A DNA stretch of 47,034 nucleotides from a bacterium. GTDB lineage: Bacteria; Patescibacteriota; Minisyncoccia; Phycocordibacterales; UBA12445. Below are positions 18,713 through 22,848 of the stretch, one piece after another. A program made the position numbers and the translations under genes. The DNA lies in contig JAUSIP010000011.1 in NCBI GenBank assembly GCA_030648005.1, positions 1 to 47,034 of the forward strand, read 5' to 3'. Below the pieces are notes generated by a model that saw only the letters and a program-made list of their open reading frames with translations, ran no database searches and was not told where the DNA came from. Each line of letters begins with the position of its first letter. Position 1 is the first letter of the stretch.

Positions 18713-19300
18713 TCATAGATGGCTATGGGCGAGGGAATTGTTGATCTGCTTTAAGAGGAGTGATCGTTTGGTATTATCGAGCGAAAGCTGGCTGGTGTCC
18801 CAATCAGAAAAGTCAGTGAGGTGATTCAACTCGCCATCGCGTCCGACATAACCGAGCTTATGCAAAATACGAAATACCAAAATGATCTCTAACGAAGATA
18901 GTGCCTCTTTAGAAAGTTCATGCTCGGCCATGAATTTAACAGCACAGCTAACCTCTTCAAATATATCCGCATCTTTCTCTTCCCCTTTTATAAGACGCTT
19001 AAGTAGGGAGAAGATCCGACACATCAAACGATATTTATTTTTATCTGCATAGATGGAATTAAAATCATCCACCTTCTCCGCTCCGACAACACGCCAGAAC
19101 TGCTTGCCCTTAACAAGTGATATCTTACCAAAAGAGTAATCTTGCAAGCCATAGCGAAGCTTGGAATTTATTTTTCGTACACCTTGAGCCATACCGCGAA
19201 CAAGCCCGAGTTCAGAAGTAAAGATGTCCAAAAACCGGTTGGCCTCGCCGACATTGATACTGCCAAGGATCCAGCCGTTGGTTTGATAGATGTGGTACAT
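18713..19300 (-). CDS. recO: DNA repair protein RecO
   Basis: N-terminal OB-fold pattern GWILGSINVGEANRFLDIFTSELGLVRGMAQGVRKINSKLRYGLQDYS. Confidence 0.78.
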   Translation of the reverse strand: MYHIYQTNGWILGSINVGEANRFLDIFTSELGLVRGMAQGVRKINSKLRYGLQDYSFGKISLVKGKQFWRVVGAEKVDDFNSIYADKNKYRLMCRIFSLLKRLIKGEEKDADIFEEVSCAVKFMAEHELSKEALSSLEIILVFRILHKLGYVGRDGELNHLTDFSDWDTSQLSLDNTKRSLLLKQINNSLAHSHL

Positions 19301-19302
19301 TT

Positions 19303-22300
19303 TTACACCGACAGAGTAATTCTCAAAACCATCTCCCCTATCTTAACCTCTTCGCCCTGGCCGGACAGGCCGTCATTCTCTGCCTCTTTAACAGAACTTA
19401 CTCCCACGATCCTCTGCAGATCAGGAGTAAATTTATTTATGAAATTTTTAACATCATCTCCGCCGGAGTATGTTAGCACTACTTTCTGTTCCGGCTGAAG
19501 ACCCATCTTCTTCCTCATATCCTGCAAGTGGCGTGTCAGATCGCGGAAACTTCCCTCTTCTTTAAGCTCGGGAGTTAAATTAATATCCAACCAGATCTCT
19601 GTCTCCATCTTCTCATCGAAGCCAACCTCTTTTACATTTACCTCATCTTTTATAAGTTCTAACAACTCTATTCTCCCCTTCAACTTTCCACTTTTAACTT
19701 TCAACTCTTTCAGTGGCTGTCTGACAGCTAAACCAAGCTTCTTCCTCTCATCTAAAGCCAGAGACACGACCTGTCTTACAACATTCATCTCTTCAAAAAG
19801 TTTACTATTGTCTTCTACTTCGACTGAAGCCGGCCAGGACTGCATATGAACGCTCGCTTTGCCGTCGCGGGCAACCTTCTGGTATATATCTTCAGCGATG
19901 AAAGGGGTAAACGGCGCTATTATTTTAGAAAGTTCGATAAGTATGTGGCGAGTAGTTCCAAACGCACTGTTCTTCTCTGCTACATCTTCAGACTTGAATC
20001 TGTCTCTTGAACGGCGCACATACCAAGTCGATAGATCATCCACGAAATCCATTATCGGCCTAGATGCTCGGTCAAGCTCATAACTGTCCAAATGTTCCTC
20101 CACCTCTCGTTTCAAGCTACTGAGTCTTACCCTGATCCATTTATCGAGGATATTCTCACCGCCTTTCTTATCTGCCGGAACCTCACCGGCATAGAGTTCA
20201 TAGAAAGAGACGACATTTTGCAATCTCAAAATTAACTTCTTGTAGATCTCATCAACACCCTTCTCTGAAAATCTTAGATCTTCAGACTTCATCAAAGACG
20301 TGGAGAGCAAGTAAAAGCGCAAGGCATCAGCACCATATTTGCCGAGCAGAAGCCACGGATCCGGAAAGTTGCCCTTGGACTTCGACATCTTAGAACCGTC
20401 CTCAGCCAAGATCGTACCGGTCGTTACAATATTTTTATAAGGTATGTTATCAAAAAGGACTCCGGATACTACCAAGCAATAATAAAACCAGGTTCTTGTC
20501 TGTGCGATATACTCAGCCACGAAGTCACCGGGGAAATGCGTCTTAAACCAATCTTTATTTTCAAAAGGATAGTGATTAGCAGCAAAGGGCATCGCAGCCG
20601 ACTCAAACCAGCAGTCTATGACCTCGCTCGTTCTCTTGTATTTGCCTCCACAATCGCAATCGTATGTCACCTCATCGATATAAGGCTTATGGAAATCGAG
20701 CTCAAAGTTCTTGTTGTGGGGTAGAGGTGAGAAATCAAGTTGATGTACTTCGGCATTATTGAGGTAGTGAAGATGATTATAACTCCCATGAAATTTATCA
20801 GCACCCTTTGCAGTCGCCCTAGCCTCAAGAGCTTCATCTGCAACGACATCTTCAGGTCTCATTCCCATAGCCACCGCTTGCATAAGCCAGACAGGATCAC
20901 CGTGCGAAACTATTAGAATATTCTTATTCTTATACTTCTCCTCAAGCGAGTATAGAAAAGAACCGACACGATGCTTCACATCAGAAAGAGACTCCCCGCC
21001 TTCCGGCTGAACATGAAAACGTTCGAGCTGATTCTTAAAATGGCTGTGATACTTCTCGATCGTCTCATTGTTGTAAACGCCAAAATTCAGCTCGCGTATT
21101 CTTTCATCATATACAATCTTATCCTTGTCATAACCGATAGTGTCTGCGACTATCTCTGCTGTGTCACGAGCTCTTATGAAATCTGAAGCGATGATCAAGT
21201 CGAAATTCTGACCCTTTAGAGATTCTGCAGACAACTGAACATTAGCTCTGCCTTCGTCCGTCAAACCATGGCCATTTAAGTCCCAGGTGACAGTGCCTTC
21301 GATATTTGCAACAGTCTGCCCGTGACGCATTATATGATATCTATTTGCGGGCTTGCGGCGCTTCTTTATGTCCTCGAGCGAACCTAGTACTTCGGTCTTC
21401 TTGCACATACTGCAGCGCCAGATCGGCAGTGGCGATGCCCAGTAGCGGTTGCGGGAGATGTTCCAGTCCGGCGCGCCTTCCAATATATTCTTGAATCTGC
21501 CATCCTTAAGGTGGTCTGGAATCCAGTTCATCTTCTGGTTGAGTTCCAACAAGCGAGGTTTTATATCCTGTATCTTTATGAACCAAGCCGACACTGCGTT
21601 GTAAATCAAAGCTGTATCACATCGCCAACAGTGCGGATAAGGGTGGGTATTATTCTCTCGCAAAAATAAAAGTTTGCGAGATTCCAAATCGTCTTTGATC
21701 GCCTTCTCTGCCTTCTTGAAATACTGGCCACGTATGAATTCCGGAGCATCAGTGTTGAAGTGTCCGGCCTGATCAAGTAGAGGCGCTTGTGCGATATCAT
21801 ACTTAATGCCCAAGTTATAATCGTCCTCACCATACATCACGGCTGTGTGCACAACACCAGTACCATCAGTCGCAGTAACGAAGTCGGCCGGCAGAACCAC
21901 CCAAGCCTTCTTGTTGGAATCCTTGATCTTATCAATCTGATAGAGTGGTTCATATTCGATACCAACAAGATCTTTGCCTGAAAATTCTTTATCTAAAGCA
22001 ACCCCACCTCCAACTTTTTCTACTCTGTCCTTGGCGACAATTAAACTACTCTCATCTTTTTTAACAACCAGATATTTCATCTCCGGATTTACCGCCAACG
22101 CGACGTTAGCCGGAAGAGTCCATGGAGTTGTCGTCCAAGCCAAGATATATGTGTCAGTAGGGAAATTGTGTTTCTCTGGACTCTTAACTTTAAATTTTAT
22201 ATATACTGCCTCTTCAGTAACATCTTTATAAGAATTATCCATCGCCACTTCAGCCTTAGACACCGGAGTCTCACAACGAGGACAGTAGAGCAGAACCTTG

Positions 22301-22848
22301 TTGCCTTCGTACAGGCGGCCCTTGTCGTCTATCTGCTTGAGAGCCCACCAGACGGACTCAATATATGAATTATCCATCGTCTTATAAGCGCCGTCGAAGT
22401 TCACCCATCTACCAATCCTATCTACTGTCTTCTTCCACTCACCTACATAATCCAAAACCTTACTCCGAGCCGTCTCATTAAAAACATCAACACCAATCCT
22501 CTCGATCTCACCCTTATTTTTTAGGCCAAGCTGTTTCTCCACTATCGTCTCAACAGGCAAACCATGGCAGTCCCAACCCCACCGGCGCTCAACGTGGAAA
22601 CCCTTCATCGTCTGATAGCGAGGTATTGTATCTTTTATCGCAGAGGCCAAGATGTGGCCGTAGTGAGGCAGACCGGTCGCAAAGGGCGGACCATCGTAAA
22701 AAATATACTCGCCCTTCGGTGAATCTTTTTTTAACGTCTTCTCGAAAGTTTTATCCTCCTGCCAGAATTTCAGGATCCTCTCCTCCCTCTCATTAGCTGT
22801 CTCCGGCTTATCCTGCGAAGCTTTAGCGAAGTAGGGCTTGTTTTCCAT
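19303..22848 (-). CDS. ileS: Isoleucyl-tRNA synthetase with inserted histidine-phosphatase domain
   Basis: GPPFATGLPHYGHILASAIKD; DGSKMSKSKGNFPDP; internal YHIMRHGQTVANIEGT...ILIVSHGDPV. Confidence 0.95.
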   Translation of the reverse strand: MENKPYFAKASQDKPETANEREERILKFWQEDKTFEKTLKKDSPKGEYIFYDGPPFATGLPHYGHILASAIKDTIPRYQTMKGFHVERRWGWDCHGLPVETIVEKQLGLKNKGEIERIGVDVFNETARSKVLDYVGEWKKTVDRIGRWVNFDGAYKTMDNSYIESVWWALKQIDDKGRLYEGNKVLLYCPRCETPVSKAEVAMDNSYKDVTEEAVYIKFKVKSPEKHNFPTDTYILAWTTTPWTLPANVALAVNPEMKYLVVKKDESSLIVAKDRVEKVGGGVALDKEFSGKDLVGIEYEPLYQIDKIKDSNKKAWVVLPADFVTATDGTGVVHTAVMYGEDDYNLGIKYDIAQAPLLDQAGHFNTDAPEFIRGQYFKKAEKAIKDDLESRKLLFLRENNTHPYPHCWRCDTALIYNAVSAWFIKIQDIKPRLLELNQKMNWIPDHLKDGRFKNILEGAPDWNISRNRYWASPLPIWRCSMCKKTEVLGSLEDIKKRRKPANRYHIMRHGQTVANIEGTVTWDLNGHGLTDEGRANVQLSAESLKGQNFDLIIASDFIRARDTAEIVADTIGYDKDKIVYDERIRELNFGVYNNETIEKYHSHFKNQLERFHVQPEGGESLSDVKHRVGSFLYSLEEKYKNKNILIVSHGDPVWLMQAVAMGMRPEDVVADEALEARATAKGADKFHGSYNHLHYLNNAEVHQLDFSPLPHNKNFELDFHKPYIDEVTYDCDCGGKYKRTSEVIDCWFESAAMPFAANHYPFENKDWFKTHFPGDFVAEYIAQTRTWFYYCLVVSGVLFDNIPYKNIVTTGTILAEDGSKMSKSKGNFPDPWLLLGKYGADALRFYLLSTSLMKSEDLRFSEKGVDEIYKKLILRLQNVVSFYELYAGEVPADKKGGENILDKWIRVRLSSLKREVEEHLDSYELDRASRPIMDFVDDLSTWYVRRSRDRFKSEDVAEKNSAFGTTRHILIELSKIIAPFTPFIAEDIYQKVARDGKASVHMQSWPASVEVEDNSKLFEEMNVVRQVVSLALDERKKLGLAVRQPLKELKVKSGKLKGRIELLELIKDEVNVKEVGFDEKMETEIWLDINLTPELKEEGSFRDLTRHLQDMRKKMGLQPEQKVVLTYSGGDDVKNFINKFTPDLQRIVGVSSVKEAENDGLSGQGEEVKIGEMVLRITLSV

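Follow-up and report, generated by a model that had tools for sequence, protein, structure and literature searches.

Despite decades of work on aminoacyl-tRNA synthetases, a second, conserved active site is part of the isoleucyl-tRNA synthetase (IleRS) used by an entire class of bacteria. Why does this enzyme contain a histidine phosphatase, and what might the phosphatase do there? Here we examine the question for an ileS gene of a member of the family UBA12445 (Patescibacteriota; Minisyncoccia; Phycocordibacterales). The window, i.e. the whole stretch of DNA that was analysed, comprises 47,034 nt of contig JAUSIP010000011.1 (assembly GCA_030648005.1). An initial annotation, made from the sequence alone, had placed a histidine phosphatase of the PGAM/RHG type inside the IleRS and had proposed that it may be active in cis, in proofreading or in the hydrolysis of alarmones or nucleotides.

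The synthetase and the position of the insert

The ileS gene (19303..22848, minus strand) is an uninterrupted open reading frame that encodes a type-2-like IleRS of 1181 aa. The protein scored 830 bits against the ileS equivalog TIGR00392 (cut-off 621), and its Pfam domains follow in the order tRNA-synt_1, His_Phos_1 (aa 506-667) and the remaining synthetase with Anticodon_1. The class I HIGH motif reads HYGH in the translation (aa 62-65; 22653..22664, minus), and the KMSKS motif is located at aa 820-824 (20377..20391, minus), with K820 and K823 invariant in the alignment. The CP1 editing domain is present; T239-T241 and D343 were invariant among 44 aligned sequences. The AlphaFold model of the whole protein had a pLDDT of 88.7 and a pTM of 0.82, and its best structural match in a Foldseek search was the IleRS2 of Priestia megaterium (8c8v, E 1.2e-88). 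Both sequence and fold are closest to 8c8u/8c8v, and the last part of the sequence is free of cysteine, as in type 2 enzymes. The catalytic core, the CP1 editing and anticodon-binding domains and the Cys-free C-terminal part are shared with IleRS2 of P. megaterium (8c8u/8c8v) and Thermus thermophilus (1ile), but the protein differs from the P. megaterium enzyme by about 216 added residues, with a full phosphatase, between chain positions 477 and 483.

The alignment to 8c8u stops at aa 497 of the query (chain position 477) and resumes at aa 714 (483), so that the approximately 216 residues were added at a single point. This stretch, which is not found in ordinary IleRS, spans aa ~498-713 (20710..21357, minus), and the frames of insert-less relatives are continuous. 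The coordinates first given for the domain (20740-21345) were nearly right, with the end a little short of this span. In P. megaterium IleRS2, residue 513 marks the start of the second half of the core (HUP; PMC10485003), which places the insertion about 30 residues ahead of this half. Cysteine pairs on either side, read from the sequence, form the two halves of a split zinc-knuckle-like site, C479-x2-C482 (21403..21414, minus) and C731-x-C733 (20650..20658, minus), and the insert is thereby enclosed in a C-x2-C ... C-x-C loop close to the catalytic core, as originally described. Judging from the cysteine pattern, binding of a metal (zinc) at these four residues is putative; in four loci (L006, L007, L021, L027) the cysteines are absent on both sides of the insert. 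A search for internal promoters and terminators within the insert yielded one weak match each, within chance expectation.

Another IleRS family with an extra enzyme domain, ileS_w_GNAT (NF040702), carries an acetyltransferase instead, and the window protein falls outside it (320 bits, cut-off 1999). The ileS gene of the window looks recombinant: its N-terminal part is nearest to L020, L042 and L089, the phosphatase part to L003 (same family, 55%) and the C-terminal part to L018 (same genus), with a breakpoint near the insert. A gene that by eye is RecO-like follows ileS at 18713..19300, as it does in several relatives.

Fold and active site of the phosphatase

The phosphatase core (aa 506-667; 20848..21333, minus) matched PF00300 (His_Phos_1) with 120 bits (E 1.3e-34), against a curated cut-off of 21.7 bits. 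When the insert was modelled alone (20668..21345) with AF2, the excised domain had a pLDDT of 93 and a pTM of 0.89, and Foldseek returned the phosphoserine phosphatase PspA first (4ij6, E 1e-13), which identifies a PGAM-like fold. Further matches were glucosyl-3-phosphoglycerate phosphatase, the riboflavin-pathway HFP 9mmh, CobC and PhoE; PspA and the other top matches are small-molecule phosphatases. Among the 60 solved chains listed for the profile of the insert, there was no synthetase. The insert has the same fold and the same RHG, R, E and H residues as histidine phosphatases of branch 1 (PspA 4ij5, PhoE 1h2e, CobC 6nru, GpgP 4pz9), but its identity to the best structural matches is only about 22-28%, it sits inside a synthetase, and RHGEA rather than RHGET is common.

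The catalytic RH(G) is represented by R508-H509 (21322..21327, minus), which is invariant in three alignments and in essentially all IleRS inserts. The second phosphate-binding arginine, R559 (21172..21174, minus), and the second catalytic histidine, H649 (20902..20904, minus), are invariant in the alignments, and the active-site acid E586 (21091..21093, minus) is E in 116 and D in 5 of 121 single IleRS domains. In an alignment of 30 order relatives, the corresponding positions R7, H8, R58, E85 and H148 were all invariant. In the set of approximately 120 single-insert IleRS domains, where some genomes are represented by two rows, the five sites varied only by the five E to D replacements, apart from gaps at contig ends. 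The mean column identity of the insert alignments was 42-48%; the retention of the catalytic sites at this level of divergence therefore indicates clear purifying selection on the catalytic residues. The motifs RHG, SDFIRARDTAE and SHGD are intact, as quoted in the initial annotation, and the domain is not degenerate in its homologues. From these conserved motifs, we conclude that the insert is likely a catalytically competent histidine phosphatase, in our reading a non-mutase one; to this extent, the proposal of an active phosphatase stands.

Distribution

The phosphatase was found in an IleRS-type frame in 55 of 60 order relatives, the source genome included; it is missing in G025, G032, G041, G056 and G057. 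A survey of the phylum with an ileS profile, and not the insert, as the query found the break in IleRS at one and the same model position in every one of the 10 class members and, among the 133 remaining genomes, in 13; one additional genome (G381) has the phosphatase elsewhere in IleRS. The best 80 loci with the insert in the genome collection include records titled Yonathbacteria, Nomurabacteria, Taylorbacteria and Kaiserbacteria, among others. Two loci titled Spirochaetia/Spirochaetales (L055, L061) carry a Patescibacteria-type IleRS insert and are probably mis-binned contigs. Chance and assembly error, the latter considered from the outset, are ruled out by the homologues, over 100 in number and from independent genomes, which include the order relatives and the named records.

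IleRS with a continuous frame and no insert also occurs within the class, and some of these lineages have no adjacent phosphatase either; the domain is therefore dispensable and not essential to IleRS. In the source genome and in many others of the class (e.g. G000, G061, G065, G080, G082, G105), the insert is the only PF00300 domain, and several order relatives keep it despite other histidine phosphatases in the genome.

Both the enzyme and the domain are known; we regard their combination, in which the second active site is conserved, as new. Searches of the literature, with subscription papers and preprints outside their scope, found no description of a histidine phosphatase inside IleRS. 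We know of no discussion of this architecture, although automatic Pfam annotation makes it visible in databases.

Free-standing copies and the number of captures

In ten genomes, the phosphatase is encoded by a separate gene immediately upstream of an ileS that lacks the insert; most of these genes abut or overlap the ileS. The usual order is argS-phosphatase-ileS, with argS seen upstream in eight of the ten loci. Nine of these free copies score 137-197 bits against the profile of the insert, and the remaining copy (L102) gave two partial matches (78 and 96 bits). In the careful tree, the sampled free copies fall within the clade of IleRS inserts (97/99), and one inserted copy (L062) groups with two free copies (99/97); the inserted and adjacent states have therefore interchanged. 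For a further free copy of this group (L155), the DNA retrieved around it contains no ileS. In two genomes (G021:C33:7050-7982 and G015:C14:3410-4321), short RelA/SpoT-like frames (~155 aa) adjoin a free histidine phosphatase, and at one locus (L210, G114) genes that by eye encode an RBBP9-like hydrolase and a MazG-like pyrophosphohydrolase lie directly downstream of an insert-less ileS.

An approximately unbiased (AU) test on the first set of sequences rejected a single clade of all synthetase-linked phosphatases; in this set, free copies that nest within the IleRS clade were treated as not belonging to it. After their removal, a single clade was not rejected (p 0.723 with the quick tree, p 0.118 with the careful tree). 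The starred branches of the tree suggest that histidine phosphatases may have been captured independently by valyl-tRNA synthetase (ValRS) and as second domains of IleRS; since the AU test does not reject a single origin (p 0.118), repeated capture is suggested rather than proven. An estimate of how often the insert was gained or lost, based on the tree of the IleRS body, was set aside because the ileS of the window is recombinant.

Histidine phosphatases and other domains in IleRS and ValRS

Nine genomes encode ValRS with one or two histidine phosphatases, in eight cases directly at the homologous site, between WGxxxPVW and DTWFSS. IleRS with more than one phosphatase, either two in tandem, as in family f200, or three, as in L121:1167-5882 (G547), was found in L120, L121, L124, L160-L166, L169 and L170, with the catalytic residues conserved in all. 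Other enzyme domains are found in the same hosts: a NUDIX domain with intact box occupies the phosphatase site of one ValRS (L232:471-3119, G477), and another, also with intact NUDIX box, lies in CP1 of an IleRS without the insert (L220:3193-6780, G083). One ValRS chain (L128:327-4157, G535) combines a HAD domain (in CP1), an RBBP9-like serine hydrolase and a histidine phosphatase, and in the IleRS of G381 (L122:1638-5990), a GNAT domain follows the DxWFESG motif and the phosphatase follows KMSKS. In a further ValRS (L231:494-3172, G448), an insert of ~150 aa at the same site gave no Pfam match and resembles the ASCH type by eye.

In a survey driven by PF00300, the listed frames of more than 800 aa were all IleRS or ValRS, as far as classified. 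The fusions of 437-552 aa that were read (G397 left out) are of other kinds, of the dPGM type; in this phylum, such fusions involve a DedA/VTT membrane protein (L224, L225, L226, L230), a 2-hydroxyacid dehydrogenase (L227) and pyruvate kinase (L229). The GAD domain of bacterial AspRS (PMC3532385) likewise interrupts the catalytic core of a synthetase as an additional domain, but both domain and synthetase are unrelated to those of the IleRS case.

Possible functions

In the explanation that we favour, tentatively and with somewhat less than even confidence, the insert would be a phosphatase tethered to the branched-chain synthetases that removes a phosphorylated by-product or inhibitor in cis, most likely as a house-cleaning activity that is held at the synthetase by covalent insertion or operon coupling. 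A phosphomonoester would bind to R508 and R559 in the RHG pocket, H509 would take up the phosphate with the assistance of E586 or H649, and water would then hydrolyse phospho-H509 and free the phosphate; the phosphatase would take no part in aminoacyl transfer itself. Candidate targets are AMP as a product, a nucleotide formed in a side reaction, or an inhibitor of the branched-chain synthetases that carries a phosphate. Because IleRS consumes ATP and releases AMP in both charging and editing (PMC9023258), AMP or a derivative is one candidate substrate, although this is a guess. If the phosphatase serves charging, model bacteria would have to deal by other means with some phosphorylated by-product or inhibitor of IleRS and ValRS, or a new control of charging would be involved. 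The proofreading role that had been proposed fares worse, as editing of amino acids is not phosphomonoesterase chemistry and the CP1 editing domain of the enzyme is normal, key residues included.

The strongest competitor, which we regard as nearly as likely, is that a general metabolic or salvage phosphatase, unrelated to charging, has hitch-hiked in a permissive loop within a protein that is essential and well expressed; it would then clearly exemplify how enzymes can be stored within essential proteins when genomes are streamlined. It is consistent with the insert being the only PF00300 domain in many genomes of the class, with the metabolic phosphatases as closest solved relatives, with the unrelated GNAT, serine hydrolase, NUDIX and HAD domains within IleRS and ValRS, and with the fusions of histidine phosphatases in this phylum in which the partner is a DedA-type protein, a 2-hydroxyacid dehydrogenase or pyruvate kinase. 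Against a stored enzyme speak the restriction of the large hosts to IleRS and ValRS (among the frames listed, as far as classified), the ten cases in which the separate domain directly adjoins ileS, and the relatives that retain the insert alongside other histidine phosphatases. We favour a local duty at the synthetases slightly over a stored general phosphatase because of the specificity for these hosts, the adjacency in operons and the further phosphohydrolases that the hosts contain; the GNAT and serine hydrolase domains also fit a merely permissive site and count against a local duty. The wider proposal that phosphohydrolases of unrelated superfamilies (mostly histidine phosphatases, with few NUDIX and HAD domains) were repeatedly captured by IleRS and ValRS, several of them at the same core-side site, for house-cleaning in cis distinct from amino-acid editing, is on balance rather unlikely.

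It is improbable that the domain removes 3'-phosphates from damaged tRNA termini near the acceptor stem and thereby permits charging. The location of the insert about 30 residues ahead of the second half of the catalytic core would suit such end repair, and fusions of RNase H with histidine phosphatases are known (NCBIfam NF005567; 87.6 bits here, below the cut-off), but no RNA-binding feature was found, the best matches of the insert act on small molecules, and the repair would be needed for all tRNAs, whereas the domain was seen in IleRS and ValRS only. Hardly more credible, and if anything a little less so, is a regulatory protein phosphatase that acts on the synthetase or a partner: some branch 1 histidine phosphatases, e.g. 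SixA, do act on phosphoproteins, but neither a kinase partner nor a conserved phospho-site was identified.

Synthetases stand at the root of amino-acid starvation signalling, and NUDIX domains occur in related hosts, both of which would fit the hydrolysis of alarmones or other nucleotide second messengers, the other role initially proposed. We nevertheless consider this role very improbable, as the insert is found without RelA/SpoT in at least 12 order relatives (G008, G011, G012, G014, G017, G022, G027, G033, G039, G049, G052, G059) and RelA/SpoT is kept in four genomes without the IleRS insert.

A glycolytic phosphoglycerate mutase moonlighting in IleRS is excluded for the source genome: the domain belongs to the PGAM superfamily and its best NCBIfam match there is dPGM_arch, but the score of 91.5 bits is far under the cut-off of 225, the source genome (97% complete) has no match to Enolase_C or iPGM_N, and the RR[SAT][WY] stretch that is absent from the insert is present in the dPGM-type fusions of the phylum.
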